Part shown: in pieces, positions 25,731 to 57,175 of the stretch
Layout of the letters: each line of letters starts with the position of its first letter
Numbering within the stretch: the stretch's first letter is position 1
From: Thalassotalea psychrophila
GTDB taxonomy: Bacteria > Pseudomonadota > Gammaproteobacteria > Enterobacterales > Alteromonadaceae
Direction of reading: 5' to 3'
DNA length: 64,000 nt
Assembly: GCF_031583595.1 (NCBI RefSeq)
Contig: NZ_CP134145.1
Coordinates: 1,302,001-1,366,000 of the forward strand
The notes under the pieces: model-generated
Databases searched by the model: none
Told to the model about the DNA's origin: nothing
Seen by the model: the letters and a program-made list of their open reading frames with translations, nothing else
Program-made: the position numbers and the translations under genes

Positions 25731-25840
25731 CATCAGGGAAGATGGAATGTCGACTTGCCATGGATGGCAATAAAGTCGACTCACATCAAGGATGTGCTTA
25801 TCCTCCCGCAACTAGGATGATGGAATGTTGATTTGAGTAC
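25731..25840 (+). repeat. Hairpin repeat, locus C (one full 53-bp unit and a decayed second)
   Basis: The first unit, 25731-25783, opens with CATCAGGGAAGATGGAATGT. It contains the nested stems GTCGACTT / AAGTCGAC (outer, perfect) and TGCCAT / ATGGCA (inner). A second start, CATCAAGGAT, lies at 25784, exactly 53 bp on, but decays after about 15 bases; a GATGGAATGTTGATTTG remnant lies near 25819. Same family as the arrays at 32036 and 56911. Confidence 0.75.
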
Positions 25841-25845
25841 TTTGA

Positions 25846-25870
25846 TTGGCGTGAACTTGTTCGCGCGTTA
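25846..25870. repeat. Half of a dispersed palindromic element
   Basis: TTGGCGTGAACTTGTTCGCG and the following bases match the left arm of the inverted repeat at 63321-63403 with only a few changes. The right arm is missing here. It has no coding sense. Confidence 0.5.
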
Positions 25871-26012
25871 AAGCTTTAGCAATGGAGGAATGCAAAACCA
25901 TGGAAGGGAAAGTGCTGTTAACATTAAAGTAACAAAGTACTAACAAACTATTGCAGTATTACTTTTTGAGGTTGTTATTATATCCGCAGTCAACTTACTT
26001 AAGGAATCATCC

Positions 26013-26258
26013 ATGAAAAAACTTATTATATTAATTACCAGTGCATTATTATTCTCAGTATCTGCACAAGCAGAAATTAAAGATTGTGATGATTTAAAAG
26101 ATGAAATACATACAAAAATATCGAATAACGGTGTAGAAAGTTTTGATTTGATTGTTGTTGAAAACGACGATGTTGAAGACCATGATGGCTATAAAGTTGT
26201 TGGTAGCTGTGAATCTGGCTCTCAAAAAGTGTTATATAAGAATTTATACAAAGCGTAA
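26013..26258 (+). CDS. Small secreted DUF1161-like protein
   Basis: 81 residues with a typical signal peptide (MKKLIILITSALLFSVSAQA, cleavage after residue 20). The short mature domain has Cys25 and Cys66, placed to form one disulphide, and KVVGSC near the end. Length, cysteine spacing and the CDDLKDEI start resemble DUF1161 proteins such as E. coli YnfD, whose function is unknown. AAGGAA precedes the ATG and a strong terminator follows, so it is a single-gene unit. Confidence 0.75.
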   Translation: MKKLIILITSALLFSVSAQAEIKDCDDLKDEIHTKISNNGVESFDLIVVENDDVEDHDGYKVVGSCESGSQKVLYKNLYKA

Positions 26259-26296
26259 ATTCTTATATAAACCTTAAAGAATCTAATTCAATTAAA

Positions 26297-26327
26297 GAGC
26301 TCATCGGATCCGATGGGCTTTTTTTTT
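26297..26327 (+). terminator. Terminator after the DUF1161-like gene
   Basis: AGCTCATCGGATCCGATGGGCT forms a stem with few mismatches, followed by nine T. Confidence 0.82.
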
Positions 26328-26505
26328 GCTTAGCGCTGCATATACAATATCCCTATTGAAAACAGCTTATTTAATGTTTTACATCATGTGAAATTGAATG
26401 AAATCACTATAGACGGATCTAGGTTTGTAAATTTTTTATTGGCAAAAAATCTATTTTTAGATTAAATTTATTAACTTACTATTGTAAATTTGATTGAAAA
26501 TATCG

Positions 26506-27423
26506 ATGAATACTCATTTACCCAACTTAAAACATCTGCAATATCTACTCGCATTAAACGAGCATCAACACTTCCATCGAGCAGCGGATGCATGTTTTGT
26601 AAGTCAGTCAACTCTTAGTAGTGCTGTTATAAAACTTGAACAACTTTTAGATTGTCAGCTTATAGAGCGAGATCATAAAAGCTTTGTCTTTACTGCGCAT
26701 GGCAAAGCAGTAGTAAAAATGGCTGAACAGTTAATTCATAGCGCCACTGATTTAGTCGAATTCTCAATGTCACAGGGCTTAACTAGCAAAGGCCATATAT
26801 ATTTAGGCTGTATACCAACTATCGCACCATTTTTATTAACTGATGTGATATCTGCCACTTCAGAATTATTGCCTGATATTGAATTATTTATTAAAGAAGC
26901 GCCAACAGATGAATTGCTCAAGCAATTAGCTAATGGTGACATTGATATTGCCATTCTAGCTTTGCCGATTGATAACAAACATAATCACAACTTTAAACAA
27001 ACCCACTTGGGCAACGATGAGTTCTATTTAGCCGGTAACGAAGAGTTAGTAAAACAAGTAATAAGCGATGAAGATTATCAAAATATACCTGACGAAAGTG
27101 TATTTTTATTATCAGAGGAACATTGTTTAACTGACCACGCTTTATCAGCTTGTAAATTAGTGAACAAATCTAAAATAAATCCTTTTGCTGCCACTTCATT
27201 AGCGACCCTTTTACAAATGACGATTCATCATAATGGTTTGACCTTTTTACCTGAAATGGCAATAAATAAAGGCATTGCAGGCCATGCTTATTTGACCGTA
27301 CAAAAGCTTAATAAGCATCCCTACAGAGAAATAGCCATGCTTGAACGTAATGGCAGTCTTCGCTCTGAAACCTTCAGTTTACTGGCAAATGTAATTACTG
27401 ATTTGTTTGAGCAAAACCGTTAA
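26506..27423 (+). CDS. oxyR: Hydrogen-peroxide sensor OxyR (LysR family)
   Basis: 305 residues from the ATG at 26506; an in-frame TTG at 26494 would add four residues. The LysR winged helix is at 1-60 (HFHRAADACFVSQSTLSSAV). The two redox cysteines of OxyR are present as Cys207 and Cys216 in SEEHCLTDHALSACKL, with the same nine-residue spacing as Cys199 and Cys208 in E. coli. Peroxide should join them in a disulphide and switch on catalase and peroxidase genes. No katG or ahpC is in the window. The AT-rich region upstream probably holds its promoter. Confidence 0.93.
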   Translation: MNTHLPNLKHLQYLLALNEHQHFHRAADACFVSQSTLSSAVIKLEQLLDCQLIERDHKSFVFTAHGKAVVKMAEQLIHSATDLVEFSMSQGLTSKGHIYLGCIPTIAPFLLTDVISATSELLPDIELFIKEAPTDELLKQLANGDIDIAILALPIDNKHNHNFKQTHLGNDEFYLAGNEELVKQVISDEDYQNIPDESVFLLSEEHCLTDHALSACKLVNKSKINPFAATSLATLLQMTIHHNGLTFLPEMAINKGIAGHAYLTVQKLNKHPYREIAMLERNGSLRSETFSLLANVITDLFEQNR

Positions 27424-27542
27424 AAATATAAAGTTGAAAAAAAATTTAAAATTTTCAAACTATTTTCTCAATCCTTCCTACATATATAGTAAATCGATAT
27501 TAATAAAGAAAATAATAATGACAAACCTTCTAGGTATATATT

Positions 27543-28091
27543 TTGTTTGAACGCAGCGATGAAACATTAATAAGCCTTGCTTTAAAGGGGAAAAAATCTG
27601 CTTGGATGACGTTATTAAAGCGTTATGAAAAGCCGATTTATAATTACACTTTACGTATGGTTAGTAACCCTGATGATGCTTTGGACTTATTACAAGATAT
27701 CTTCATGGCGGTTTTTAAGAATTTAGCCTCGTTTCGTGGTGACAGTAAATTTAACAGTTGGTTATTTAGAATTGCACATTATCGATGTATTGAGTATTAC
27801 CGGCGCAAGAAACCTCATCAATCTCTAGATGATGAACCAGAGCAAGAAGCCGATATTAGCGATAGTTGTCCTGAAAATAATATAAAACAGTCTCAACAAT
27901 CGGAAGCGTTAGCTACGGCGATGAAAATTTTACCAATAAACCAGCGTACCGTTATTGAGCTAAAGTTTTTCCAGCACTTTACCTTCGATGAAATAGCCGG
28001 TCAGCTTGGTATATCAAGTAATACAGTGAAATCTCGTTTATATAGTGCGTTAGATAAATTAAAAGGCGTTTTGGAGGTAGATTATGTCTAA
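27543..28091 (+). CDS. ECF-type RNA polymerase sigma factor
   Basis: 182 residues with sigma region 2 (DALDLLQDIFMAVFKNLASF, then FNSWLFRIAHYRCIEYYRR) and region 4 (LPINQRTVIELKFF...FDEIAGQLGISSNTVKSRLY), and no regions 1 or 3. Only TTG is available as a start; the next in-frame Met is residue 22, inside region 2. AGG lies 11 bases upstream. An out-of-frame 10-codon ORF at 27518-27550 overlaps the start and may couple translation. The next gene, overlapping by 8 bp, is its likely membrane anti-sigma factor. Confidence 0.88.
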   Translation: MFERSDETLISLALKGKKSAWMTLLKRYEKPIYNYTLRMVSNPDDALDLLQDIFMAVFKNLASFRGDSKFNSWLFRIAHYRCIEYYRRKKPHQSLDDEPEQEADISDSCPENNIKQSQQSEALATAMKILPINQRTVIELKFFQHFTFDEIAGQLGISSNTVKSRLYSALDKLKGVLEVDYV

Positions 28092-28788
28092 TTCAGAAAA
28101 TCATAAAGACCATGAATTTAAGTTATGGTTAGATGGCAAGCTAAGCCCTGAGCAAAGTATGCAGTTTGAACAGGATATTGCCGATGATGAAGCTATGCAG
28201 CAACGCCTTGCTACTGCACGCTTTATTGAACAACAAGTACATTGTTATGAAGAACAAGCGACACCTACTTGGGATCGGGAAAGTACTTTTCTTGCTGATT
28301 CAAAGCCTTGGTGGCAATGGCAAGGGCTGCCAGCATTGTCTATGGCATTTTCGATATTTGCTATTTGTTTAGTGATTTTTAAAGTCGAACTAGTTATGCA
28401 AGACAGTGGACTTTTGGTTAACTTTGGTGGAAAAAGTGTTCAACAAAACCCAGTGAATGTTGACCAACTTATAAATCAACGTCTAAAAGAATTTGCCGCT
28501 GAACAGCAGGTCGTTATGGCAAATTATGCTGCAGATATGAAAGATGACCAACAAGATAATAATTTAAAACTTGCCACTTATTTAATGAGTGCCTCCAGAC
28601 AAGAACGTAAAGAAGATATTTCAAGTTTTGTTAAGTTTGTAAATGAGCAACGAGACGAAGATGCAATTGATCAAAAGTTACGCTTTCAAAAGCTTGAGTA
28701 TGCTTTACAGTCGCAATCAATTGAAAACACATTAAATTCACCAATGCTTAAAAAAGCAAATTATGAACAACCTATGCAGGAGAAATAA
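28084..28788 (+). CDS. Putative membrane-anchored anti-sigma factor
   Basis: 234 residues: an acidic N-terminal cytoplasmic part (about 1-75, with FKLWLDGKLSPEQSMQFE and DIADDEAMQQRL resembling anti-sigma domains), one membrane helix (about 80-100, LSMAFSIFAICLVIFKVELV), then a periplasmic part rich in Gln and charged residues. There is no zinc-binding H-x3-C-x2-C motif. Its overlap with the ECF sigma gene is the main reason to call it an anti-sigma factor; it is probably released by stress-induced proteolysis, which is inference. Confidence 0.7.
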   Translation: MSNSENHKDHEFKLWLDGKLSPEQSMQFEQDIADDEAMQQRLATARFIEQQVHCYEEQATPTWDRESTFLADSKPWWQWQGLPALSMAFSIFAICLVIFKVELVMQDSGLLVNFGGKSVQQNPVNVDQLINQRLKEFAAEQQVVMANYAADMKDDQQDNNLKLATYLMSASRQERKEDISSFVKFVNEQRDEDAIDQKLRFQKLEYALQSQSIENTLNSPMLKKANYEQPMQEK

Positions 28789-28790
28789 AA

Positions 28791-29720
28791 ATGAAAAATA
28801 TTAATAAGGCGGCTTTACCTCTCGCATTGGCATCAGTACTGTTTAGCAGTCATGCGAGTGCAATTGATTATGACAAATTGCATCAGCAACTAGATATTAT
28901 GAGTGACATTATTAAGAGCTCTGTTAAAAAGCAAAGTGATAATAAAGGACCGCAGCTTGCAAGAATAGAAAGTCACTATTTAGCTGGTCAAGGTGTTGTT
29001 TTTAATTTGAACGTTGCCAGGGTTCTATATTATGGTCACAACAGCAATATAAATACTCCAGTGATGCCGCTTATGCCTGTTGTACCTCGCCCGCCACGTA
29101 ATTCTGAAGGGCACGAAGGAGCAGAGCTCTTTGGTGAAAACTATGAAATAGTCATTGAAGAGGCTATGGAAGAAGCTGCGATAGCTATTGAAATGATAAA
29201 TGAAAACATTCGTTTTGATGCTGAAGATCAACGGGAGTTAAGAGAGCAAGAGCGAGAGCTTGCCTATGAGTTAAGAGATTTAGCACGCGAAGAACGCGAT
29301 TTAAACTATGAAAAACTGCATTTAGACGACGATGAAAAAGCTGAGTATCAAAAAGAATTAGTTGAAATAAAGAAACGTAAAGAAGTTATTGAGCAAGCCA
29401 AAGTAAAAGTTAAAAAACGTGCTAAGGAATACAAAGCTAAAGTACAAAAAGTACAGGATGAAAAAGCAAAACAACAACAACTATTTTATTCACAGCTTGA
29501 ATCAAATATAACCGATGTACTGTGCAGTTATGGTGGAGGCTTGAAAGAGTTACCTGATTCAGAATATATCTCAATGATTATTAATGGAGCAGGAAATACC
29601 ATTGATGGACGAACTAAAGATAAAGTATTGGTATTTAATAAGTTAGACGTTAAAAATTGTGTACTTGAACGCATTGATGCTGCAGCTTTACTCAGTAAAG
29701 CTAATGGCTACCAGTTTTAG
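28791..29720 (+). CDS. Hypothetical periplasmic coiled-coil protein of the ECF operon
   Basis: 309 residues with a signal peptide (about 1-24, cleavage near ASA). A linker containing a Pro-rich stretch (MPLMPVVPRPPR) is followed by a long highly charged coiled coil (about 135-240, rich in Glu, Arg and Lys). The C-terminal domain has two cysteines (VLCSYGG and NCVLERI). Family not recognised. It follows the anti-sigma gene by 2 bp with AGGAG before the start, so it is the third gene of the sigma operon and may be a sensor or effector of envelope stress. Confidence 0.65.
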   Translation: MKNINKAALPLALASVLFSSHASAIDYDKLHQQLDIMSDIIKSSVKKQSDNKGPQLARIESHYLAGQGVVFNLNVARVLYYGHNSNINTPVMPLMPVVPRPPRNSEGHEGAELFGENYEIVIEEAMEEAAIAIEMINENIRFDAEDQRELREQERELAYELRDLAREERDLNYEKLHLDDDEKAEYQKELVEIKKRKEVIEQAKVKVKKRAKEYKAKVQKVQDEKAKQQQLFYSQLESNITDVLCSYGGGLKELPDSEYISMIINGAGNTIDGRTKDKVLVFNKLDVKNCVLERIDAAALLSKANGYQF

Positions 29721-29749
29721 GTAGAGGGAAATAAGCGAGCAATAATAAG

Positions 29750-29779
29750 AAAGCCCTGTATTTAACAATACAGGGCTTT
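29750..29779. terminator. Bidirectional terminator between the ECF operon and bamE
   Basis: AAAGCCCTGTATT-TAAC-AATACAGGGCTTT is a perfect 13-bp stem lying between two convergent genes, with A- and T-rich flanks. Confidence 0.85.
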
Positions 29780-29808
29780 AATGCTTTTAGAGCTTATTAG
29801 GTTTTGTA

Positions 29809-30150
29809 TTACTGATCCATAGGTACGTGAAAGTTTTCACCTACTTCAAAGTCACCTTCTGCTTTGGTTAGTAAATCGCCATCAAAGCTTAAAACCAACT
29901 TTTTACGTTTATTAAAAGCTTCATCTTTACCAGATAAGAACTCATAAACGTAATACCAAGTATCATTATTGAAGCTGTCTTTTATTACTGGGTTACCAAG
30001 TACATATTTTACTTGCTCTTTGGTCATACCTACTTGTAATTTATTAATTTGTTTTTGTTCTAGGTAATTACCCTGAGGCACGTCTATTTTGTATACACAG
30101 CCCGAAACTAAGCATAATGCTAAGCTTAAAATTATTGCGCGAGATAACAT
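29809..30150 (-). CDS. bamE: Outer-membrane assembly lipoprotein BamE (SmpA/OmlA)
   Basis: 113 residues with a lipoprotein signal (lipobox VSGC, lipidated Cys18). The BamE core includes NKLQVGMTKEQVKYVLGNPV and DTWYYVYEF. It stabilises the BAM complex that inserts beta-barrel proteins in the outer membrane. It is downstream of recN on the same strand, the order also found in Vibrio. Confidence 0.95.
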   Translation of the reverse strand: MLSRAIILSLALCLVSGCVYKIDVPQGNYLEQKQINKLQVGMTKEQVKYVLGNPVIKDSFNNDTWYYVYEFLSGKDEAFNKRKKLVLSFDGDLLTKAEGDFEVGENFHVPMDQ

Positions 30151-30265
30151 CTATTATTTATTCCTATCTATCCTGAGCAAGGATAATAACCAAGCCAGTT
30201 AAGAGATTAAAGGTTTTTGTCATTTATTTGCAAAATTTATTATTATTGCTGTCTATATTGAGTAA

Positions 30266-31930
30266 CTAACTAGCTAAAAGTTCCTTCGCATTTGCTAAAC
30301 TTGTTTTTGTTATTTCATCTCCAGCTAATAACCGAGCTATTTCATTTTCTCTGGCATCAAGGCTGAGTTCAGTCACACTAGTTTGTGTATTTTTTCCATC
30401 AGTGAGTTTTGCCACAAATAGTTGCTGATGCCCTTTACTTGCAACTTGTGGTAAATGAGTGACACAAATAACTTGCGTAGACTCACCAAGCTTATTCAAT
30501 TGTTGTCCTACCTTTGCTGCTGTTGGACCACTGATACCAACATCCACTTCATCAAAGATAAGAGTAGGTGTAACAACCTTTTCAGCAAGGATCACTTGTA
30601 TTGCTAGACTTATTCTTGATAACTCACCACCTGACGCAACTTTTGCTAAAGGTTCAACTGGTTGGCCTGGGTTCATGCTTACTAAAAATTCGATATTATC
30701 TGTGCCATTTGTAGTTGGCTCTGTGATCTCTTTTTCTGCTATAGCTAATTTGAAAATTGCCTCTGGCATATTCAATTGGCGAATGGACTTCGTTATTGCT
30801 TTTTCGAGCTTAGTTGCAGCTTTTATCCTGCTTACTCTAAGTTTACAAGAAAGCTCTTTATATTCGAGTAGGCAACTCTCCATTTCATCATGTATGTGTT
30901 CAAGTCGTGAATCATCTGAAGCAATAGCATGCAACTCTTTACAAATGTCACGGTGAAAACTATCCAAATTTTCAGGTGCTACTTTATGTTTTCTCGCTAA
31001 ATCAACAGCGGTAGAATAGCGTTCTTCGATTAATGCGAAAGTTTGTGGATCTAAGTCGATACTTTGTTGATATTCTATAAGGTCATGGCTTGCTTCTTCA
31101 AATTGGATCCTAGCTTCATTTACTAATGTTGCGATTGCTTTAACGCTGGGGTCGAGTTCTGCCAGTTGATTTAGGTTTTCGGTAGATTTTTGTAGTTGGC
31201 TAAGAAGATTGAACTGCTCATCGTTTGCTATTTCTTGTACGCATTGTTCCGATAACTGCATTAATTGTTGAGAATTACTATTTCGCTTAAAATCTGCTTC
31301 TAGTTGTGTAAATTCATTTACTTGCAGGGAAAATTCATCAAGCTCTTTTACTTGATATTGCAATAATTGTTGTTGTGCCAAGCGTTGCTGTTTACTTTGT
31401 TGAAGAATTTGTAACTCACTCTTGAGTGCTCGCCACTGGTTTTGGTAATGTTTTAGCTCTGATAACATCTCTTGATGGTTGGCATAATCATCTAATAATC
31501 GGCATTGCTCTTGGTTTTTCATTAACAGTTGATGGTCGTGTTGGCCATGAATATTTAATAAGTATTGACCAAGATCTTTTAATTGCGCTAAAGGGACAGG
31601 GCTACCATTTATGTATGCTTTCGAGCGGCCTTCTGCGCTTATTACTCGTCTTACAATACACTCACCATCTTGTTGTAGATCATGGGTAGCAAGCCACTTT
31701 AATGCTTTAGGTGTATCTGTTATTTCAAAAGTTGCAGTAAGCTCAGCTTTGGTGCTGCCTGGTCTAACAGTATTCGCTAACGCCCTACTACCTAAACATA
31801 AACCTAAAGCATCTATGGCAATCGATTTACCAGCACCTGTTTCGCCTGTGATGGTGGTCATGCCTTTTTGCCAGTCGATTTCTACAAAGCTGACAATGGC
31901 GAAGTTTCTTATGGCTAAATTTAATAACAT
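30266..31930 (-). CDS. recN: DNA repair ATPase RecN
   Basis: 554 residues from the ATG at 31930, whose product MLLNLAIRNFAIV aligns with the usual RecN start; an in-frame TTG at 31942 would add four residues. SMC-like layout: Walker A GETGAGKS (29-36), a long coiled-coil middle, and the signature and Walker B near the end (ASGGELSRISLAIQ, PTLIFDEVDVGISG). It acts at double-strand breaks. A LexA box lies about 50 bp upstream, so it belongs to the SOS response. Confidence 0.96.
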   Translation of the reverse strand: MLLNLAIRNFAIVSFVEIDWQKGMTTITGETGAGKSIAIDALGLCLGSRALANTVRPGSTKAELTATFEITDTPKALKWLATHDLQQDGECIVRRVISAEGRSKAYINGSPVPLAQLKDLGQYLLNIHGQHDHQLLMKNQEQCRLLDDYANHQEMLSELKHYQNQWRALKSELQILQQSKQQRLAQQQLLQYQVKELDEFSLQVNEFTQLEADFKRNSNSQQLMQLSEQCVQEIANDEQFNLLSQLQKSTENLNQLAELDPSVKAIATLVNEARIQFEEASHDLIEYQQSIDLDPQTFALIEERYSTAVDLARKHKVAPENLDSFHRDICKELHAIASDDSRLEHIHDEMESCLLEYKELSCKLRVSRIKAATKLEKAITKSIRQLNMPEAIFKLAIAEKEITEPTTNGTDNIEFLVSMNPGQPVEPLAKVASGGELSRISLAIQVILAEKVVTPTLIFDEVDVGISGPTAAKVGQQLNKLGESTQVICVTHLPQVASKGHQQLFVAKLTDGKNTQTSVTELSLDARENEIARLLAGDEITKTSLANAKELLAS

Positions 31931-31978
31931 AGTCGCACTCAATTAATTATTTATTTACCAAAAGGTAAAAAATAAACA

Positions 31979-31994
31979 CTGTTGATTTATACAG
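31979..31994. promoter_or_regulatory. LexA (SOS) box upstream of recN
   Basis: CTGTTGATTTATACAG is a perfect CTGT-N8-ACAG operator extended on the right by TA, as in the gammaproteobacterial consensus. A second, imperfect CTGT-N8-ACTG lies on the minus strand at about 31992-32008. Confidence 0.87.
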
Positions 31995-32035
31995 TAAAGT
32001 TAACAGTGATTTTTTTTGAATGCAAGTTTTATTTC

Positions 32036-32347
32036 CATTCAGGGAAGAAGGTATGCCGAGCTACCATGGATGGTAAAGGATCGGCGACATTCAGGGAAGA
32101 AGGTATGCCGAGCTGCCATGGATGGTAAAAGGTCGGCGACATTCAGGGAAGAAGGTATGCCGAGCTACCATGGATGGTAAAGGATCGGCGACATTCAGGG
32201 AAGAAGGTATGCCGAGCTGCCATGGATGGTAAAAGGTCGGCGACATTCAGGGAAGAAGGTATGCCGAGCTACCATGGCTGGTAAAAGGTCGGCGACATTC
32301 AGGGAAGAAGGTATGTCGAGCTACCATGGCTGGTAAAAGCTCGGCGC
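32036..32347 (+). repeat. Tandem hairpin repeat, locus A (six 52-bp units)
   Basis: Units begin CATTCAGGGAAGAAGGTATG at 32036, 32088, 32140, 32192, 32244 and 32296, exactly 52 bp apart. Each holds an inner stem TACCAT / ATGGTA and an outer stem GCCGA / TCGGC. Units alternate between two variants (ACCATGG with AAAGGA, and GCCATGG with AAAAGG). The last unit has TCGAGCT / AGCTCGG, a longer stem. The array lies between nadK and recN, about 40 bp upstream of the LexA box, in a 469-bp gap with no gene. Confidence 0.92.
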
Positions 32348-32411
32348 GTTTTCAATTAGGGCTTTGTCGAATTAGTTTTTGACGATTGGTATTTAAAGCT
32401 TACTTATGGTT

Positions 32412-33293: not shown

Positions 33294-33385
33294 TCAAATA
33301 GCGCTAATATATTGTTTATTATGGCAGTTTTACCGACATTTTTCCTATTGTAAAGAGGGCATTTAATAAATAGTTAAAAAATCTC

Positions 33386-33414
33386 CTTGAAACCTTTGAT
33401 AAAGCCCCCATAAT
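33386..33414 (+). promoter_or_regulatory. Sigma-32 heat-shock promoter of grpE
   Basis: CTTGAAA (33386-33392) and CCCCATA (33406-33412) are separated by 13 bp, matching the RpoH consensus CTTGAAA-N-CCCCATNT. The grpE ATG is about 60 bases downstream. Confidence 0.85.
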
Positions 33415-33473
33415 TACCACAATTATGAATTAATAAGTCTTGTTTAAGACTAAATGATACTGTGGAGTTATCG

Positions 33474-34109: not shown

Positions 34110-34135
34110 CCAGCTAAATATATTTAAAATATTAA

Positions 34136-34172
34136 AAGAGCGAGAAAGTTATCTTTCTAGCTCTTTTTTTTT
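34136..34172 (+). terminator. Terminator of grpE
   Basis: AGAGCGAGAAAG and CTTTCTAGCTCT form a 12-bp stem with one mismatch, followed by nine T. Confidence 0.83.
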
Positions 34173-34335
34173 GTTTCAAGGATGAAGCAATGCAAATCGC
34201 CATGGACCGTGCCTTCACATCCTCGGCAACTGCTTCCTCGATAACGCTCCTGAGCTATTCTACTTACATACGTCCCTATATTAATGCATGGCTCTACCTC
34301 CTGCACCCCTGCAGTGGTCCTTGAAGGTGACGTGG
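34173..34335. repeat. Degenerate intergenic repeat patch after grpE
   Basis: No gene. It contains a small palindrome CTGCACCCCTGCAG near 34300 and phrases such as CAAGGATGAAGCAATG and CTTCCTCGATAACGC. These recall the repeat families at 25731 and 63321 (which has CTTCCTCTTCGAGGATAACG). It looks like a decayed composite of intergenic repeats and marks the boundary of the inserted sensory block. Confidence 0.45.
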
Positions 34336-45917: not shown

Positions 45918-45930
45918 GCTCTGAATTTTC

Positions 45931-47283: not shown

Positions 47284-47284
47284 T

Positions 47285-48785: not shown

Positions 48786-50815
48786 CTTTTTGATTTGATC
48801 AAGTCGCGAATGATGAAACGATTTGGGGATAAATTAAATAGCATTTCTTCATCAACCGGGTAATCGTCATTGCAGATTTCAGCGGCAAGAATATCGGCTA
48901 GTAATGGGGCTGAACATAACCCCCTAGCACCTAATCCAGTTAAGACATATAGGCCATTTTTTAATGGCGCCACCTGTTGATAATGCCAGTTTTTATCTTT
49001 ACTTAAATGCGCATAGTATTGTTTGTGTAAATCAATATTTGGTATGCGGCCAACAATTGGTAAATGATCCGGCGTGCAGCAGCGTAATCTCGCTTTACTC
49101 GCTTTTACGTCTTCACTCGTCCATTGGCCTATGTCACCCAAACAACGCTCTAACATTTCAATATTATAAGAATCATCGATTGATCGAGATGATAGGTCGC
49201 TGTCATCTTTATCGAAGGTTGCGCCGATGCAATGCACATTATTATTTTCTGGCGTTAAATAGCCTTTATGACAAAGTACTGTTTTCAAATTATTGATCTT
49301 GGCATTGGTTTTCATTTGGCTAACTTGACCGCGCACGATAGACAATGGCATGTCATTTAAAGCATCAATTTTCAGGCTGTCAGCACCAGTACATATAATC
49401 AGATTTTGTACTTGTTTTTGTTCTTGCTTTTGACCTTTTTGAGTTGTAATTAGCCAGCGATCATTTTTTAAAGCTTTAACTGCTAATAATGTTCGCTTGT
49501 TTTTTACTTTCACTTTTCCTGTGTCTATTGCGGCTTGGATGATTGCATTAACCAGCTCCGGAGGGCAAACCCATCCGGCCCTAGGCATATATAAACCGGG
49601 GTGATTTACCTCAACACCGCTGATAGCATTGACTTGTTTAGCACTAATTGCTTGGATTAAGTTTTCTGGCCAGGCTTGTTTTTGCGCAAATACTGTTTGC
49701 CTTTTTACTAACGCATCTTTATACGACACCTCAATCAGACCATTAAAGCCATGACTAAAGTTGTAACCTAGCCCTAATAGTTCTTGGTATAAAGCCATTG
49801 AACGTTCGAAACCTTGCTGATAAAAATCACTTATGGGATCTTTATTTTGATGAAGTAACGGGTAAATGGCACCAATAGCATTGCTTGATGCGCCTTGAGC
49901 TAGATGTTCATCCTGGCACAGCAATGTTACTTTAATGCCTTTTTTAGCCAAGGCAAAAGCTGCACAGGCACTAGCTAATCCACCGCCAATAATGGTGGCA
50001 TGTTTCGAACTTTCAACTTTCTCTCTAACTTTGAAACCTGTCAATGGTTTACCTTTACGCAGGCCAACATAAGTGGCTATTAAAGATTGTGACTTTTCTG
50101 CTCGGCTTTCACTATTTTCTACTTCAGCTTTATCATGATCGAGTTTACTCACTTTAAAACCAACTTCTTCAAGTCCCCGTCTTACTATGCCCGCTACAGT
50201 AAAAGTTGCCAAAGTCGCATTTGTTTTTGCAATTCTAGCGAGTTGTAAAAACAAACCTTTATTCCACATCTCAGGATTTTTAACAGGAGAAAAACCATCA
50301 AGGTAAAAACAATCTACTATGCCTTGTTTAGGTACCTCTATACTCGCTAATGCTTTAGTTGAGTCAGAAAATAAAATTGTCAAGGTTACAGCACTATCTG
50401 CAAATAAAAATGTTTGCTGTTGTTCATGTAATTCATATTGTTTGAGCAATTCATTGCTGTACTCGGCATACTCTGGCCATAAGGCTAGGGCACTAGTAAG
50501 GTCATTCTTACTTAAAGGAAATTTTTCAGTGCTGATAAACTGGAGTTTCAGGGGGGAATCAGTTTGTTGTTTGAATTTAATAAAACGGTCTAAAGTAAGT
50601 AAAAAGTTTAATCCTGTGCCAAAACCGGTTTCAACAATAACAAAGGTATCTTCACTGTGTTCATGCCAAACTTGCGGAATATTATTTGCTTCAATGAACA
50701 CTTGTACACTTTGTGAGCAGCCTTGATTGCTATCAAAGTAAATATCGTCAAATTCTTGCGAAAATGGTGCACCATTTTCATTAAAACTTACATTTGCTGT
50801 TTTTATTTGTACCAC
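48782..50815 (-). CDS. mnmC: Bifunctional tRNA wobble-uridine modification protein MnmC
   Basis: 677 residues. The N-terminal methyltransferase domain (about 1-245, with VIVETGFGTGLNFLLT and YLDGFSPVKNPEMW) converts the aminomethyl intermediate to mnm5s2U34. The C-terminal FAD oxidoreductase domain has HATIIGGGLASACAAFALA near 268 and the closing GLGARGLCSAPLLA. The only start is a GTG. Divergent from fabB, as in E. coli. Confidence 0.96.
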   Translation of the reverse strand: MVQIKTANVSFNENGAPFSQEFDDIYFDSNQGCSQSVQVFIEANNIPQVWHEHSEDTFVIVETGFGTGLNFLLTLDRFIKFKQQTDSPLKLQFISTEKFPLSKNDLTSALALWPEYAEYSNELLKQYELHEQQQTFLFADSAVTLTILFSDSTKALASIEVPKQGIVDCFYLDGFSPVKNPEMWNKGLFLQLARIAKTNATLATFTVAGIVRRGLEEVGFKVSKLDHDKAEVENSESRAEKSQSLIATYVGLRKGKPLTGFKVREKVESSKHATIIGGGLASACAAFALAKKGIKVTLLCQDEHLAQGASSNAIGAIYPLLHQNKDPISDFYQQGFERSMALYQELLGLGYNFSHGFNGLIEVSYKDALVKRQTVFAQKQAWPENLIQAISAKQVNAISGVEVNHPGLYMPRAGWVCPPELVNAIIQAAIDTGKVKVKNKRTLLAVKALKNDRWLITTQKGQKQEQKQVQNLIICTGADSLKIDALNDMPLSIVRGQVSQMKTNAKINNLKTVLCHKGYLTPENNNVHCIGATFDKDDSDLSSRSIDDSYNIEMLERCLGDIGQWTSEDVKASKARLRCCTPDHLPIVGRIPNIDLHKQYYAHLSKDKNWHYQQVAPLKNGLYVLTGLGARGLCSAPLLADILAAEICNDDYPVDEEMLFNLSPNRFIIRDLIKSKS

Positions 50816-50927
50816 GAAGCAGAAACCTTGTTATTTAATTTGAACGAAAAATAGTGCATTAACCCGCTAATTTTGTTAAATTTTACTCCTTAGTCGAGCG
50901 ATTATCTACTAAAGTCTATGGCAAATC

Positions 50928-50956
50928 AGCGTACAAGTGTACACTGGACAGACCAG
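50928..50956. promoter_or_regulatory. FabR-like and FadR-like operators upstream of fabB
   Basis: AGCGTACAAGTGTACACT (50928-50945) differs by one base from the FabR palindrome AGCGTACA-N2-TGTACGCT. CTGGACAGACCAG (50944-50956) differs by one base from the FadR core CTGGTC-N-GACCAG. They touch each other about 60 bases before the fabB start. In E. coli fabB is repressed by FabR and activated by FadR, and this arrangement suggests the same control. Confidence 0.8.
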
Positions 50957-51015
50957 ATAGAGTTTTTTTCGTAGTATGATACGCACAATTAAATCAATTA
51001 ACGATGGTTAAATAT

Positions 51016-52227
51016 ATGAAACGTGTAGTTATTACAGGTCTTGGTATTGTGTCTAGTATAGGTAACAATGCAAACGAAGTACTAGATTCTTTACAAAATG
51101 GTCGCTCTGGCATCAGCCGTGCAGAAAGTTTTGCTGAAAATGGTTTAAAAAGCCAAGTTTGGGGACAACCTAACATTACTCCAAGCGAGCATATAGATCG
51201 TAAAGTTATGCGCTTTATGGGCGATGCCGCAGGTTATGCTTACATTGCTATGCAAGAAGCAATTGACGATGCAAAATTAACAGATGAGCAAGTATCTAAT
51301 GTTCGTACTGGTTTAGTTGCAGGGTCAGGTGGTGCTTCTTCAATGAACGTAATTAATTCAAATGATACTCTTCGTGCAAAAGGTATTCGTCGTGTTGGTC
51401 CTTATGCGGTACCAAAAACAATGTCGAGTACTTGTTCTGCCTGTTTAGCAACACCATATAAAATTTTAGGCGTTAACTATTCTATCAGTTCTGCCTGTGC
51501 TACATCAGCTCACTGTATTGGTCATGCTGCAGAGTTAATTCAATTAGGTAAACAAGATGTTGTATTTGCTGGTGGTGGTGAAGAAGTAGATTACTCATTA
51601 GCTATGATGTTTGACGGTATGGGTGCACTATCAACTAAAATGAATGACAATCCTGAACTTGCTTCACGTACTTACGATGCAAACCGCGATGGTTTTGTTA
51701 TCTCTGGCGGCGGCGGTATGGTTGTTGTTGAAGAACTAGAACACGCTCTTGCTCGTGGCGCGCACATTTATGCAGAAATCGTAGGTTACGGTGCAACTTC
51801 TGACGGTTACGATATGGTAGCTCCGAGTGGTGAAGGTGCTGTACGTTGTATGCAACAAGCTATGCACGGTGTTGAAGGTAAAGTTGATTACTTAAACACT
51901 CATGGTACATCTACACCAGTTGGTGATGTTAAAGAACTTGGCGCAATTCAAGAAGTATTTGGTCATGATTCTCCAATGATCTCTGCGACTAAAGCGATGA
52001 CTGGTCATGCTTTAGGTGCTGCAGGCGTTCATGAAGCTATATACACAATGTTAATGATGGAAAACGACTTTGTTGCTCCTTCAATTAACGTTGATGAGTT
52101 AGATGAAAAAGCTGCAGGCTTGAACATTATTACTGAAAAACTTGATACTGAAATTAACCTAGCTATGTCAAACAGCTTCGGTTTTGGCGGTACTAACGCT
52201 ACGCTAGTAATGGCAAAATATAAATAA
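51016..52227 (+). CDS. fabB: 3-oxoacyl-ACP synthase I (FabB)
   Basis: 403 residues from the ATG at 51016, which gives [16 protein letters not shown] as in E. coli; an ATG at 51004 would add four residues. The catalytic triad is Cys161 (SSACATSAH), His296 (NTHGTST) and His331 ([10 protein letters not shown]), shifted by two from E. coli. Elongates unsaturated and saturated fatty acids. The operators at 50928 fit its role at the unsaturated branch point. Confidence 0.97.
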
Positions 52228-52254
52228 ACGATATTTATATATTTAAAGTTTGTT

Positions 52255-52281
52255 AAAAACCAGGTGCGTCCTGGTTTTTTT
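52255..52281 (+). terminator. Terminator of fabB
   Basis: AAAAACCAGG-TGCGT-CCTGGTTTTTTT, a strong stem followed by seven T. Confidence 0.88.
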
Positions 52282-52298
52282 GTGCTTAAAATATGAGA

Positions 52299-52354
52299 AG
52301 CTAGGAGCTAGGAGCTAGGAGCTAGGAGCTAGGAGCTAGGAGCTAGGAGCTAGG
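52299..52354 (+). repeat. Heptanucleotide tandem repeat (AGCTAGG) x 8
   Basis: Eight exact copies of AGCTAGG occupy 52299-52354 between the fabB terminator and pdxB. A short inverted pair, GTCCTAGTTGGTCCTAA and TTAGGAC, follows. Likely to vary in copy number by slippage; it is outside any gene and about 75 bp before the pdxB start. Confidence 0.95.
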
Positions 52355-52429
52355 AGTGGTCCTAGTTGGTCCTAATTCATTAGGACGTTTTTCCTAAATA
52401 GATAAATTACTAATATCGAGTGAACTAGT

Positions 52430-53548
52430 TTGAAAATTTTTTACGATGAAAACATCCCTTATGCTAAAGAGTTCTTCAGTGACTTTGGCGAACTTGTACC
52501 CTTTGCCGGCAGAGAGTTAAGTGCTGAACAAATCAAAGAGGCTGATGTTTTATTAGTGCGTTCAATTACTAAAGTAAACGAACAATTATTACATTTAAAC
52601 ACCTCATTAAAATTTGTTGGCACAGCAACAATTGGTTTTGACCATGTCGACCAAAATTATTTAAAGCAAAGAGGCGTTGTTTTCACCAATGCTCCAGGTT
52701 GTAATGCCATATCAGTTGCCGAATATGTTCTAAGCGCTCTAATGGTTATGGTTGAACGTTTAGATTTTGATTTAAAGACTAAAACAATTGGAATTGTCGG
52801 CGCTGGTAATACCGGCACACGGTTGTCTGAAAAGTTAGATGCATTTGGGATTAACTATTTATTATGCGATCCGCTACTAGAAAAAGCAGGTGATAGTCGA
52901 ACATTTAGCTCGTTGAAAGAGATTCTAGGTTGTGACATTATCTCCTTGCACGTGCCAATAACTCAAAAAGGCGATCACAGAACTTTTCATATGTTTGATG
53001 ATTTGCTGTTGTCTGAGTTATCTAATCAACAAATATTAATCAATAGCTGCCGCGGTGAAGTTATTAATAATCAAGCGCTGTTGCAATTGAAAAAAAGCCA
53101 AAAAGGCCCCCATATTATTTTAGATGTTTGGGAAAATGAACCTAATGTTTTAACTGAATTAATTCCTTATTGTGAAATAACCACTGCACACATTGCTGGT
53201 TATAGCTTAGAAGGAAAAGCTCGTGGTACAGAGATGCTATATCAGGCATTATCTAAACTTGTAAATAAACCAATCGAAAAACAGCTAGAGCAATTTTTAC
53301 CGAAAGCCGAAATTGAGTATGGAAATCAACATTCTCAAAACGAGTTATTTTCTGTAAAACAAAGAGTTTTTGATGTTTATGATGTAAGACGGGATGATAA
53401 AATATTCCGGGAACAGCTAAATATTAAATCTTTTGACTATTTACGTAAAAATTACCCTGTTAGAAGAGAGTTTAGTGCGTTAGAATTATCGGTCCAGCAA
53501 TGCTGGCCAGATACGTTAAAAAACCTTGGCTTTAACGTTAAAGATTAG
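52430..53548 (+). CDS. pdxB: Erythronate-4-phosphate dehydrogenase
   Basis: 372 residues. Second step of the DXP-dependent pyridoxal phosphate pathway. TTG start giving MKIFYDENIPYAKEFF, which aligns with E. coli MKILVDEN. NAD fold with GIVGAGNTGTRL near 116; catalytic Arg and Glu in NSCRGEVIN and NEP; catalytic His in AHIAGYSLEGKARG; a C-terminal dimerisation domain typical of PdxB. The AGCTAGG tract upstream could influence its expression. Confidence 0.96.
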   Translation: MKIFYDENIPYAKEFFSDFGELVPFAGRELSAEQIKEADVLLVRSITKVNEQLLHLNTSLKFVGTATIGFDHVDQNYLKQRGVVFTNAPGCNAISVAEYVLSALMVMVERLDFDLKTKTIGIVGAGNTGTRLSEKLDAFGINYLLCDPLLEKAGDSRTFSSLKEILGCDIISLHVPITQKGDHRTFHMFDDLLLSELSNQQILINSCRGEVINNQALLQLKKSQKGPHIILDVWENEPNVLTELIPYCEITTAHIAGYSLEGKARGTEMLYQALSKLVNKPIEKQLEQFLPKAEIEYGNQHSQNELFSVKQRVFDVYDVRRDDKIFREQLNIKSFDYLRKNYPVRREFSALELSVQQCWPDTLKNLGFNVKD

Positions 53549-53558
53549 AAAATAAATT

Positions 53559-53620
53559 ATACCAATTCCATTAATTATTTTAACCAGTAAAAATGAGCAG
53601 ATAATTAACGGACTTGGTAT
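53559..53620 (+). repeat. MITE-like element, copy 3 (62 bp, internally deleted)
   Basis: Keeps both terminal inverted repeats (ATACCAATTCCATTAATTAT at the left, and the inverse with one change at the right) but lacks about 100 internal bases present at 1845 and 46456. It lies between pdxB and asd. Confidence 0.8.
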
Positions 53621-53667
53621 TAATACCATAACTTAAATTAATCCAGTAAATTGAGTAGAGAAAGAAA

Positions 53668-54684
53668 ATGGCGCAAAAATTTGATGTAGTTGTATTAGGT
53701 GCAACGGGCCTAGTGGGTAAGCACATGATGGAAATTCTTGAACAACGAAAGTTTCCAATAAATACCCTTTATCCATTAGCAAGTAGCCGTAGTGCTGGCG
53801 AGATTATTGAGTTTAACGGCCAAAGTGTTGAAGTACTTGATGCTGACACATTTGATTTCACCCAAGCTCAAATCGGATTTTTCTCTGCGGGTGGCGCAAC
53901 GTCTGCTAAATTTGCGCCTATTGCTGCTGATGCAGGCTGTATTGTTATTGATAATACCTCTGAGTATCGCTATGACCCAGAAATCCCTTTAGTGGTTCCA
54001 GAAGTTAACCCTGAAGCATTAGCTGATTACCGCAACCGCAACATTATTGCTAACCCTAACTGTTCAACAATTCAAATGATGGTTGCACTTAAACCTATAT
54101 ATGACGCCGTAGGTATTGACCGTATTAATGTAAGTACTTACCAATCTGTTTCTGGTGCAGGTAAAGTAGCAATTGAAGAGTTAGCAAAACAATGTGCTGA
54201 TTTATTATCTGGCAAGCCAGTAAAGGTAGAAGCGTTTTCTCGTCAAATAGCGTTTAACTCTATTCCACAAATTGATTCGTTTGAAGATAACGGTTATACC
54301 CGTGAAGAAATGAAGATGGTCTGGGAAACTAAAAAAATACTTGGCGATGAAAGCATTTTAGTTAACCCGACTGCGGTTCGAGTTCCTTCGTTCTATGGAC
54401 ATGGTGAAGCGTTGCATATAGAAACTACGCAGCAAACATCTGCCGAAGAAGTTAAAGAGTTACTTGCACAAGCTCCTGGTATTGTACTTGCAGCTAAGGA
54501 TGAAGACTTCCCAACTCAAGTGAGTGATGCTAGCGGCAATGATGAAGTATTTATTGGCCGTGTACGTGAAGATATTTCACATCCCAATGGTATTAACATG
54601 TGGATTGTTGCTGATAATGTTCGTAAAGGCGCTGCAACAAACAGTATTCAAATTGCTGAGCTATTAATTAAAGATTACTTATAA
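53668..54684 (+). CDS. asd: Aspartate-semialdehyde dehydrogenase
   Basis: 338 residues. NADP fold with VVVLGATGLVGKHMMEIL; catalytic Cys132 in NPNCSTIQMM; later His in VRVPSFYGHGEALHIE. The lysine/threonine/methionine branch enzyme. In E. coli the gene in this position (usg) is a catalytically lost paralogue; here the catalytic Cys is kept, so it should be active. AAAGAAA precedes the ATG. Confidence 0.93.
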   Translation: MAQKFDVVVLGATGLVGKHMMEILEQRKFPINTLYPLASSRSAGEIIEFNGQSVEVLDADTFDFTQAQIGFFSAGGATSAKFAPIAADAGCIVIDNTSEYRYDPEIPLVVPEVNPEALADYRNRNIIANPNCSTIQMMVALKPIYDAVGIDRINVSTYQSVSGAGKVAIEELAKQCADLLSGKPVKVEAFSRQIAFNSIPQIDSFEDNGYTREEMKMVWETKKILGDESILVNPTAVRVPSFYGHGEALHIETTQQTSAEEVKELLAQAPGIVLAAKDEDFPTQVSDASGNDEVFIGRVREDISHPNGINMWIVADNVRKGAATNSIQIAELLIKDYL

Positions 54685-54718
54685 GCTATATAATTTTTAT
54701 ACCAATAAACTGCTTTAA

Positions 54719-54775
54719 ATAAACCAGAAATTGACTCGGAAAATATTAATAGGATCCGCGTTATTTCTGGTTTAT
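54719..54775. repeat. Inverted repeat between asd and fimV
   Basis: ATAAACCAGAAAT (54719-54731) and ATTTCTGGTTTAT (54763-54775) are perfect 13-bp arms around a 31-base loop. No T-run follows. It could be a weak terminator or the remnant of a small element. Confidence 0.55.
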
Positions 54776-54873
54776 AGTATCTTATTAAGTTACTAAAAAA
54801 TATAAGCAAAAGAGATTCTAGACCCTCTTTGCTGTCATATATAAAATTGCCGCAGAATAGGACGGATCTTTTC

Positions 54874-56862
54874 ATGGCTGATAATAACAATAAGTCGTTA
54901 TTTAAAACGATAAAACAATCAATTAGTGTTGCGCTCATTTTAGTAACATCTTTTCATGCTGTAGCTCAAGATGAAGCATCATCTGTGGCGGAAACTAATC
55001 AAACAGTATTGAACAAACCCATCGATAATGACGTTTCAACTTCTAGCTCAACTATCACTGGTAGTGAAATTACTAGCTCTATAAGCCCAAGCTTCGATGA
55101 AGATAATAAAGCCTCATATGGGCCAATTATTAACACTGATACATTATGGAAAATTGCTGTTGCACATCGTCCGGATAGTACAGTATCTAATTACCAAGTG
55201 ATGATGGCATTATTTAATACCAACCCTAATGCCTTTTTACGTAATGATATTAATACTTTGGTTGCAGGACAGTTTCTACGTATTCCGACTCTTGAAGAAA
55301 TTCGCCAAGTTGCGCCATACCCTTATGGTAATACTAAAACTGTAGAAACCGTTGATACCACGGATACTGAATTAGCTTCAGCAGCTTCTACTGAATCGCC
55401 TATAGAGGTTGCTAATGAAGCAGTTACTGCTAGCGAACAAGTTGTTAAAAATATTACTGTTGAAGAAAACACTGTCTCTAATGATATTGAGGTAGTTTCT
55501 GTAAGCACAGTTACGAGTTTTGAAATTATTGAAGAAGAAGCCGTTGAAACATTAAAAGCAGAAAATAGTGAGCTTAAAGAAAGTTTAAATGCCGTTGATG
55601 ATCAACTGTCTTATTTACAATATGAGGTTGCTAAAGCAACTGAAATGCAAGCGCAAATGGATGCTAAACTAGCAGAGCAAAATGCGCTGTTAAAAGAAGC
55701 AAAAATGCGAGAGCAGAAGCTATTAACCCAACAACGTGAATTGACAGAACATCAACAAGGATTCTTTAATAATCCAATAACATATTGGTCAATTAACGGC
55801 TTGTTAGCAATATTAGTGATTATTTTGTTTGTGTTAGTGTCTCGTCGCAAAAAAATGGAAGAAACAGTAAACAATACTGTTGATGACAAAGCTAATAACG
55901 AATCTAAAGCAGTAGAAAAATCAGCTGTTAGCGTAGAAGAAAGTATAAAAGAGCCAATTGATGAAAATGCCGAAGTTACAACTGTCGGTATTGAAGAGTT
56001 TGAACAAATTGATGTCTCACAACCAAGTACTAATCTTCATATTGTTGAAACAATTGAACCACCTTCTGAAAATGAACATGTTGTTACTGCTTTTTCTGAG
56101 ATAGAATTAACTCCTGAAAAACATGATCATGAACTTGAAATTTTAGATGATAAAGATTTATTGGCTAAGCTTGTACCCGGTGGAGTACAAGACAATCGTG
56201 ATGAAGATAATGTAAAAATTCAAGCTACTGAAGATGATTTAGATATTGAACAAATCATAGACGACATGCTCGATGAAGAATCAAAACCCGCAAAACTTCG
56301 TTCAGCCAGAGCGCCGTTAGAAGAGCTTGTTACTTCAGATGAGCTTAATGAAGAAGACTTAGAAATAAATCGCTCAGAAGTGCATGAAATAAACGACTTT
56401 GATGATATAGAGTTTGATAAGCTATTAGCTGAAATTTCAGCTGAATCAGAGCATATAAAGCCGCCGAGCAATGTTACACAATTGCGAAGAACCACTGAAA
56501 TTAAAGCGCATGCAATACAAGATGTTGTTGAATCAGTTAAACCAGAGAAAATAGATCAAGACTTTATTGGTGTTGATGCATTACTTGAAGAATCTGCGTT
56601 AGCTGAGGAATTAGATGAAAGCATTTTTGACCAGCATAAAATTGATGTAGGGTTAGATGAATTTCCAGAATTTACCTCACAAGTAAATCACGTTAATGTG
56701 GATGATGATAAGCATGGTGTTAATGCTAAATTAGATTTAGCTCAGGTTTATATCGAAATAGGTGACTTAGATAATGCTGCTGTCATTTTAAAAAGTGTGA
56801 TGAAACTTGGTAATTCCGGACAACAACAGCAAGCACAAGACTTATTGTATTCAATAAAATAA
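54874..56862 (+). CDS. fimV: FimV/HubP-family polar organiser
   Basis: About 662 residues from the ATG at 54874. N-terminal membrane segment or signal (about 15-33), LysM-like periplasmic module (about 80-150, DTLWKIAVAHRPDST and FLRNDINTLVAGQFLRIPT), coiled coil (about 225-300), membrane helix (about 308-328, LLAILVIILFVLVSRRKK), a long acidic cytoplasmic region, and the C-terminal FimV domain (AKLDLAQVYIEIGDLDNAAVIL). The family organises cell poles, type IV pili and chemoreceptors. It sits between asd and truA, as in Shewanella and Vibrio. Confidence 0.9.
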   Translation: MADNNNKSLFKTIKQSISVALILVTSFHAVAQDEASSVAETNQTVLNKPIDNDVSTSSSTITGSEITSSISPSFDEDNKASYGPIINTDTLWKIAVAHRPDSTVSNYQVMMALFNTNPNAFLRNDINTLVAGQFLRIPTLEEIRQVAPYPYGNTKTVETVDTTDTELASAASTESPIEVANEAVTASEQVVKNITVEENTVSNDIEVVSVSTVTSFEIIEEEAVETLKAENSELKESLNAVDDQLSYLQYEVAKATEMQAQMDAKLAEQNALLKEAKMREQKLLTQQRELTEHQQGFFNNPITYWSINGLLAILVIILFVLVSRRKKMEETVNNTVDDKANNESKAVEKSAVSVEESIKEPIDENAEVTTVGIEEFEQIDVSQPSTNLHIVETIEPPSENEHVVTAFSEIELTPEKHDHELEILDDKDLLAKLVPGGVQDNRDEDNVKIQATEDDLDIEQIIDDMLDEESKPAKLRSARAPLEELVTSDELNEEDLEINRSEVHEINDFDDIEFDKLLAEISAESEHIKPPSNVTQLRRTTEIKAHAIQDVVESVKPEKIDQDFIGVDALLEESALAEELDESIFDQHKIDVGLDEFPEFTSQVNHVNVDDDKHGVNAKLDLAQVYIEIGDLDNAAVILKSVMKLGNSGQQQQAQDLLYSIK

Positions 56863-56884
56863 GAGCAATATTTCTCTAACGATG

Positions 56885-56909
56885 AATACCGGCAATTGCC
56901 GGTATTTTT
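56885..56909 (+). terminator. Terminator of fimV
   Basis: AATACCGGCAATTGCCGGTATTTTT, a 10-bp near-perfect stem with a T-run, directly before the repeat array. Confidence 0.82.
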
Positions 56910-56910
56910 A

Positions 56911-57175
56911 CATCAGGGACGATGGAATGCCGGCTTGCCAAGGATGGCAGTGAAGTTGGCTCACATCAGGGACGATGGAATGCCGGCTTGCCAAGGATGG
57001 CAATGAAGTCGGCTCATATCAGGGACGATGGAATGCCGGCTTGCCAAGGATGGCAGTGAAGTCGGCTCACATCAGGGACGATGGAATGTCGGCTTGCCAG
57101 GGACGGCAATGAAGTTGGCTCACATCAGGGATGGTGAAACATCAATTTGCCATGGATACAAATGAAGTAACTCCT
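56911..57175 (+). repeat. Tandem hairpin repeat, locus B (five 53-bp units)
   Basis: Units begin CATCAGGGACGATGGAATGC at 56911, 56964, 57017, 57070 and 57123, 53 bp apart; the last is degenerate. Each holds an inner stem TGCCA / TGGCA and an outer stem around GCCGGCTT and AAGTCGGC. Same architecture as locus A with different bases. The array fills most of the 408-bp gap between fimV and truA; the rest shows no gene. Confidence 0.9.

Follow-up and report, generated by a model that had tools for sequence, protein, structure and literature searches.

What are the short tandem hairpin repeats in the intergenic DNA of Thalassotalea psychrophila, and what keeps them there? A 64,000-nucleotide (nt) stretch of its genome (contig NZ_CP134145.1, positions 1,302,001 to 1,366,000, forward strand; hereafter the window, whose own coordinates we use) holds three arrays, A, B, and C, that an earlier reading of the letters alone (the sequence-only reading) had assigned to one repeat family with partly covarying stems. 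Our analysis of the genome and its relatives indicates that the arrays belong to a real repeat family, specific to the genus, that follows a precise site rule (directly behind intrinsic terminators) and bears the loop signature of sites for the regulator CsrA; we consider this description firm. We further propose, with about even confidence, that the family is a terminator-targeted repeat presenting dual CsrA-type sites in read-through RNA.

Range, site, and loops of the family

Consistent with a single family, one covariance model (R1; built from 21 units, including units of all three arrays) matched arrays A, B, and C. In the genome under study (G000; 4.81 Mb), R1 found at least 149 units at E ≤ 10, at least 133 of them at E ≤ 0.01. 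Unit counts are lower bounds, with 150 candidates scored in G000 and 99 per genome in a survey of 59 genomes. That survey, which used stricter filters, placed the family across the genus: 14 of the 15 genus genomes matched at E ≤ 0.01, with at least 101 units in G000, at least 100 in G004, at least 72 in G010, at least 44 in G011, and at least 20 each in G002 and G006, down to 8 in G003, 1 in G001, and none in G009. The four nearest relatives of G000 carry 20 to 100 units each (lower bounds). Among the 44 genomes from outside the genus, three matched at this threshold (G026 with 4 units, G017 with 3, and G056 with 1).

A strict pattern (T-run, short gap, TCANGGANGA) occurred in G000 103 times forward, a count that includes overlapping matches within one T-run, and 34 times in reverse, against 0 and 0 for the reversed pattern. 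In 344 other genomes of the order, none from this genus, the pattern was present in 168, and counts per strand were mostly 0 to 3, like those of the controls; the exceptions were G245, G062, and G177 (5 to 7 forward) and G164, a member of another genus whose 24 reverse terminator-TCANGGANGA matches, against 0 in the control, possibly mark an independent family. An 18-base sub-family pattern was found in 16 stretches of a named genome collection, 7 from Thalassotalea and 9 single matches in unrelated taxa. Array B had no match at E 1e-5 in either the plasmid or the phage records, and we rejected a phage or plasmid origin on this basis. The earlier impression that no known family fits was borne out by an Rfam scan of the window with all families, none of which reached its gathering threshold. 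We also did not find the family described in the literature searched, where reach into subscription journals was limited.

The site rule is visible at the head of the unit, which begins right behind the terminator T-run (hairpin-TTTTTTA, then CTTCAGGGATGAAGG), most junctions being TTTTTA followed by C. In G000, 50 of 58 array starts passed a test for a hairpin plus T-run, compared with 284 of 20000 random positions, drawn here and below from the whole sequence and not only from intergenic DNA. In six relatives (G004, G010, G011, G006, G008, and G007), 36 of 42 starts at 40 selected loci passed (random, 77 of 5000), and at least five T residues stood in the last 10 bases before 40 of the 42 (random, 921 of 5000). 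The G000 loci comprised 60 sources and 112 units, and candidate sites with E above about 2.5e-4 lay mostly outside this set. Its 58 starts are 73 minus 15 judged internal or nested (3 in array A, 5 on the opposite strand or nested, and 7 behind variant units). The 112 units and 73 starts include three units of array A (32088, 32192, and 32296), not its first. Array A is the main exception to the rule, as a T-rich stretch and no proper terminator precedes it; counted as a failure, it makes the tally 50 of 59. Four of the eight other failures (L088, L092, L112, and L113) resemble terminators with longer loops. The test in the relatives differed slightly (longer loops, higher score), with the 40 loci taken from top matches. 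Its six failures were three starts in L296, L291 and L315 behind variant units, and L299, while one pass, L310, is doubtful. When genes were called by longest open reading frame (ORF), the loops lay on the coding strand of the upstream gene at 52 of the 58 arrays; the downstream gene is sense at 29 and antisense at 22 of the 51 called.

Each unit of about 52 nt consists of hairpin 1, a linker usually ending in ATG, hairpin 2, and a short tail. Hairpin 1 has 4 to 5 bp (e.g., CATCA/TGATG, CTTCA/TGAAG, or ATTCA/TGAAT), and hairpin 2 has an outer stem of 5 to 7 bp, an inner stem of 4 to 5 bp, and a bulge on the 3' side. The sequence-only reading had given all arrays one unit plan; its single family stands, whereas it had overlooked the start-of-unit hairpin (CATCA-GGGA-TGATG type) and, in describing the setting, the terminators directly 5' of arrays B and C.

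The loops are the strongest signal, and an unexpected one, with the pattern of a CsrA/RsmE site. The loop of hairpin 1 reads A (107/107), N (G 71, A 18, T 15, C 3), G (106/107), G (107/107), A (107/107), followed by a variable base (T 70, A 24, C 13). That of hairpin 2 reads A (97/99), N (T 72, A 12, G 12, C 3), G (96/97), G (92/97), A (87/91), followed mostly by T (91/97). The same ANGGA pattern occurred in 68 distinct units of the six other genomes; the units have hairpin loops of the form ANGGA(N), GGA being nearly invariant and N free. In the part of PMC7652899 on which we draw, the CsrA/RsmE consensus from systematic evolution of ligands by exponential enrichment is RUACARGGAUGU, with GGA in loops mostly of six bases, ANGGAN with a variable N is the CsrA/RsmE hexaloop, and CsrA bridges paired sites at spacings of 10 to 63 nt, best above 18. 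The GGA starts lie 25 nt apart in array B units, within this bridging spacing. CsrA is encoded in 14 of the 15 genus genomes, and the G000 protein has the RNA-binding residues L4 and R44.

Comparison of eight orthologous unit pairs set N apart from GGA: there were 7 differences in 16 positions at N, counting a single-base gap that could be placed in more than one way, and 2 in 48 at GGA (Fisher, p 0.0005; 0.002 without the gap), next to 1 of 16 for the A before N, 3 of 16 for the base after GGA, and 30 of 322 for the remaining positions. The two GGA changes occurred in L014, in which two outer-stem pairs were lost as well, and in L117, with 16 differences. L100/L289 (different unit number), the element at 34173, and array A of G000 were left out of the pairs. 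A model-free scan of 464 kb (the window and 20 stretches of 20 kb each) covered the DNA following 130 predicted terminators and found GGA at hexaloop positions 3 to 5 in 12 cases against 1.3 expected, making it the most over-represented trinucleotide of those seen at least twice; 7 of the 12 come from the window, and some resemble chance finds (63306, L190, and L193). We conclude that terminator adjacency and the two ANGGA loops are the key features of the family and that the loop is at least as visibly constrained as the stems. GGA-loop hairpins with unrelated stems also sit behind terminators. One such element, in L176 at 14241 (+), has a CACATGGAGGTG hairpin, TTATCCTCCC, CCAGGGATGG, and GGGAGGG, and pieces like it occur in L108, in L120, and in the remnant of array C.

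Arrays of the window and their stems

The three arrays lie where the sequence-only reading had placed them, with the units and lengths it gave. Its confinement of the family to three loci did not hold: the family is genome-wide, and the window contains two further elements, at 34173 to 34230 and about 63506 to 63558. The features are as follows, read from the sequence unless other evidence is given.

25698..25729 (+): intrinsic terminator (hairpin and T-run) immediately 5' of array C; the orthologous terminator in G004 has no array C unit
25731..25783 (+): array C, single full unit, with loops AGGGAA in hairpin 1 and ATGGAT in hairpin 2; R1 77.7 bits (R1 was trained on this unit), folding energy -18.7 kcal/mol (z -3.6)
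25784..25840 (+): array C remnant, with pieces from other sub-families (CATCAAGGATGTG..., ...GGATGATGGAATGTTGATTTG)
31978..32019 (+): A+T-rich hairpin and T-run about 16 nt 5' of array A
32036..32347 (+): array A, six 52-bp units, hairpin 1 of only 3 bp
34136..34172 (+): terminator 3' of the grpE gene
34173..34230 (+): fourth element, of a compound sub-family; 32.4 bits with a second model, R2
56886..56909 (+): symmetrical intrinsic terminator between fimV and array B
56911..57175 (+): array B, five 53-bp units, four near-identical and the fifth diverged; also a covariance model match
63506..63558 (-): probable fifth element behind a terminator, seen in loop scans only; far end (about 63506) set by eye

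Tandem Repeats Finder scored array A at 552 and array B at 388. The intergenic setting had been described as after pit, between nadK and recN, and after fimV. NCBIfam confirmed recN, nadK, fimV, and truA, whereas the gene 5' of array C is phosphate/sulfate permease-like with scores short of the curated cut-offs (75 bits where PitA requires 800, and 123.5 where sulfate permease requires 400). The hairpin upstream of array A overlaps CTGT-N8-ACAG, which we take to be LexA-box-like. The element at 63506 to 63558 combines the hairpin GGCC-ATGGAT-GGCC with another whose loop is AGGA, on stems unlike those of the other arrays, and neither R1 nor R2 matched it. Two other repeats were seen: a perfect tandem repeat of the heptamer AGCTAGG (8.3 copies) between two ORFs at 52299 to 52356, and a second intergenic family, GTCCGAATAAATTCGGACCAACC plus GGTTGGCGTGAATTTATTCGCGCG, whose hairpins have no GGA loops, at 63323 to 63402, in L106 and L114, and at the pit-like site of G004.

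The stems described by the sequence-only reading form in units B1 to B4 and C1 and, in array A, over the inner and outer stems; B5 and the array C remnant do not form them. When eight units were folded singly, each against 200 shuffles, at most one shuffle did as well as the unit in five cases (z -3.1 to -4.3). For B1, 12 shuffles were as good or better, for A1 27, and for the compound element at 34174 106 (z 0.16 for the element). Longer compound elements also occur, and opposite-strand unit matches with AAGGA loops overlap or neighbor units in L120 and L098, which we read as inverted units nested within hairpin 2.

The claim that pairing is kept while bases change was upheld. Across 108 distinct units, 88.6% of cells pair compared with 76.2 in shuffles, 12 of 15 pairs changed on both sides, and 190 cells were changed on both sides against 66 in shuffles (none of 500 as high; best slid control, 40). 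In 68 distinct units from the six other genomes, 91.4% were paired; two-sided changes affected 10 pairs and 127 cells, the latter against 45 in shuffles (slid controls, at most 13). Both alignments were fitted to the structure, and relatedness among units can inflate such shuffle counts. A small MAFFT alignment, A1, which was not covariance-fitted, agreed in paired cells, both-side-changed cells, and covariation score (each 0/500), and did not agree in pairs changed on both sides (6 versus 5.6; 277/500) or pair types (16 versus 14.8; 134/500). Hairpin 1 also varies compensatorily, with columns 3/14 U-A in 60 and A-U in 27 of the 108 units. The cleanest case is array A in three species: its G004 units have CCGAATT/AATTCGG and its G010 units CCGAACT/AGTTCGG, uniform within each species. 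Such orthologues also bear out that units are uniform within arrays and divergent between them. Stem covariation is well supported, also between orthologous units.

Orthologous sites revealed gain and loss. Between fimV and truA, G000 has array B, G010 a terminator without a unit, and G004 a unit on the opposite strand of the same symmetrical terminator. Behind the pit-like gene, G000 has array C, G010 a different unit, and G004 no unit and another repeat family. L011 is occupied in G000 and has no unit in G004; L100 has one unit in G000 and two in G004; and L085 has one in G000 and several in G010. The array A site is occupied in all three species, with two units plus a remnant in both G004 and G010. 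The head of the 34173 element is present in G000, G004 (truncated), and G010, and no counterpart of the 63506 to 63558 element was seen at the aligned G004 and G010 sites. These comparisons indicate that occupancy and tandem number differ at the scale of sister species. Orthologous units are 69 to 100% identical. They stand above their flanks at L086/L303 (identical over 51 nt; flanks, 82 and 80%), L085/L309 (92.3%; 85 and 82%), and L092/L294 (92.5%; 85 and 85%) and not above them at L006/L298 (90.6%; 92 and 87%), L014/L297 (94.3%; upstream, 96%), and L117/L310 (69%; upstream, 73%).

Competing accounts of the family

In the explanation we propose, the family would insert, or be kept, directly behind intrinsic terminators and would then expand and contract in tandem. 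Terminator read-through would yield RNA carrying one dual CsrA site per unit, and the arrays would act by titrating CsrA or, ahead of a sense-oriented gene, as a leader that responds to CsrA. Read-through transcription, CsrA binding, and any effect are what we infer from these features. A bolder version, which we hold only tentatively, is that the units are mobile CsrA sponges, with copies kept for their dual sites and the lineage tuning CsrA, or coupling it to terminator leakage, by gaining and losing copies. Should the CsrA reading hold, a spreading intergenic repeat would titrate a global post-transcriptional regulator or wire it into operons, for which we found no comparable case in the literature searched. 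Even without CsrA, a repeat family with so precise a terminator-adjacent site rule makes its mode of copying a testable question. In the his leader region, L006 (G000) and L298 (G004) both have units downstream of the leader peptide MFNLNLHHRHHIID and its attenuator and upstream of the following gene, presumably hisG; unit content differs between the two, and this position would place the units in the his mRNA leader.

Several observations weigh against this explanation. A transcript ending at the terminator would exclude the repeat, and a single array among the 58 was predicted to have a sense terminator within 250 nt downstream (5 of 108 in the control). The latter led us to reject closed small RNAs with a second terminator, leaving cis action or leaky read-through. 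Hairpin 2 of array A units 5 and 6 has GGC in place of GGA. The eight orthologous pairs are few and hand-chosen, with one unit used twice. Because the models were trained on GGA-bearing units, later matches favor GGA, and as linker bases (e.g., GAATG) are also conserved, GGA constancy could partly be ancestry. Finally, the relevant part of PMC8144298 reports that Escherichia coli rrB RNA, which lies between two terminators, is made by read-through, and binds CsrA in vitro, has no more than modest effects in vivo. The CsrB model RF00018 reached at best 17.4 bits in G000 (cut-off, 71), with a 34-nt match beside a unit that is, by its place, the terminator; Csr small RNAs usually lack sequence conservation, as the portion of PMC11882849 cited here states, so the missing CsrB match says little.

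The family could instead be a REP-like selfish DNA repeat, for which a Y1/HUH (RAYT-like) protein recognizes single-stranded DNA hairpins and GGA loops and places copies behind terminators, the likeness to CsrA sites being coincidental. We consider this unlikely, though the differing occupancy between species and the TTTTTA-C junctions speak for it. G000 has one PF01797 gene, RAYT-like, beside galU, with variant units between it and the galU terminator in G000 and G004, and the five genomes with its closest relatives (G000, G010, G004, G006, and G011) include the four richest in units. However, these five are also nearest kin by TruA, so the correlation is confounded, and the G000 protein scored 44.6 against the NCBIfam REP_Tyr_transpos cut-off of 80. 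At its expected position, the HUH motif is degenerate in 11 of 15 aligned genus PF01797 proteins, including those of the five genomes (HIQ in G000, G010, G006, and G011; QIQ in G004), and H-x-H is kept only in G012, G007, and the second genes of G008 and G009. G009, with two PF01797 genes, one of them H-x-H, has no unit at E ≤ 0.01, whereas G001 and G003 have 1 and 8 units and no PF01797 gene. Degenerate HUH motifs and inconsistent adjacency led us to reject RAYT as the driver. The units are direct tandems without a GTAG motif, and such a repeat does not predict the contrast between N and GGA. The gene beside galU (L132; G000 1399231-1399974), with relatives in L260 to L266 and L269, looks like a domesticated Y1 protein. 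A reverse transcriptase (RT) was likewise rejected as the driver: RVT_1 matches occur in 4 of the 15 genus genomes and are absent from unit-rich G004, G006, and G011, and the only RT in G000 is a DRT9-like defense enzyme (L328, 927-2447; PADLOC, 720.8 bits). Nor do we claim single-strand insertion on the lagging-strand template: 46 of 61 loci, hand-listed, were co-directional with replication, as was about 64% of ORF length, hand-summed over a sample (p 0.08).

Two further accounts dispense with the loops or with selection. That the units are back-up termination or mRNA 3'-end elements, whose hairpins stop or protect read-through RNA with incidental loop sequence, would fit their place directly behind the terminator, the sense strand, the compensatory changes, and the five stable folds among eight; we judge it improbable, as there would be no need for tandem copies, GGA varies less than the loop base beside it, and a sense terminator follows within 250 nt at a single array of the 58. 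Less probable still is neutral debris, old insertions by a lost enzyme whose pairing reflects several founder sub-families and not selection. The many decayed and compound copies, the inflation of shuffle tests by relatedness, and the three orthologous units that do not exceed their flanks speak for it. Against it stand the array A orthologues, AAT/ATT in G004 and AAC/GTT in G010 and perfectly paired in both, the three units better kept than their flanks, and the N/GGA contrast at orthologous sites.

Comparison with known systems

Group IIC introns insert behind terminator hairpins, and the family resembles them in this choice of site. It differs in that its 52-nt unit has neither ribozyme nor RT, and G004, G006, and G011 have no RVT_1 match.

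Like REP/BIME sequences with RAYT proteins, as the section of PMC2817692 cited here depicts them, the units are intergenic, short, structured, present in more than 100 copies per genome, and patchy between species. They differ in their direct tandems of two-hairpin units, their position next to terminators, and their conserved GGA loops, and the only PF01797 match found in G000 has HIQ in place of an intact HUH motif. REP sequences carry a GTAG-type tetranucleotide 5' of the palindrome, which is absent from the unit consensus. As for the inverted pairs of BIME and REPIN elements, the arrays are direct tandems, yet opposite-strand matches accompany units in L120 and L098.

With the small RNAs CsrB, CsrC, RsmY, and RsmZ, the family shares many ANGGA-type GGA hairpin loops repeated along one RNA. 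Unlike them, its units are scattered behind terminators, with no sense terminator within 250 nt downstream of 57 of the 58 arrays, and RF00018, the sole Csr/Rsm model run on the genome, gave only the sub-threshold 34-nt match. The rrA, rrB, and rrF RNAs of E. coli, in the account that PMC8144298 gives in the part used here, come from three rRNA-operon loci, are closed by a second terminator, and form no repeat family, in all of which they differ from the units. Like the units, however, they stand behind an intrinsic terminator, and these RNAs are made by read-through and bind CsrA.

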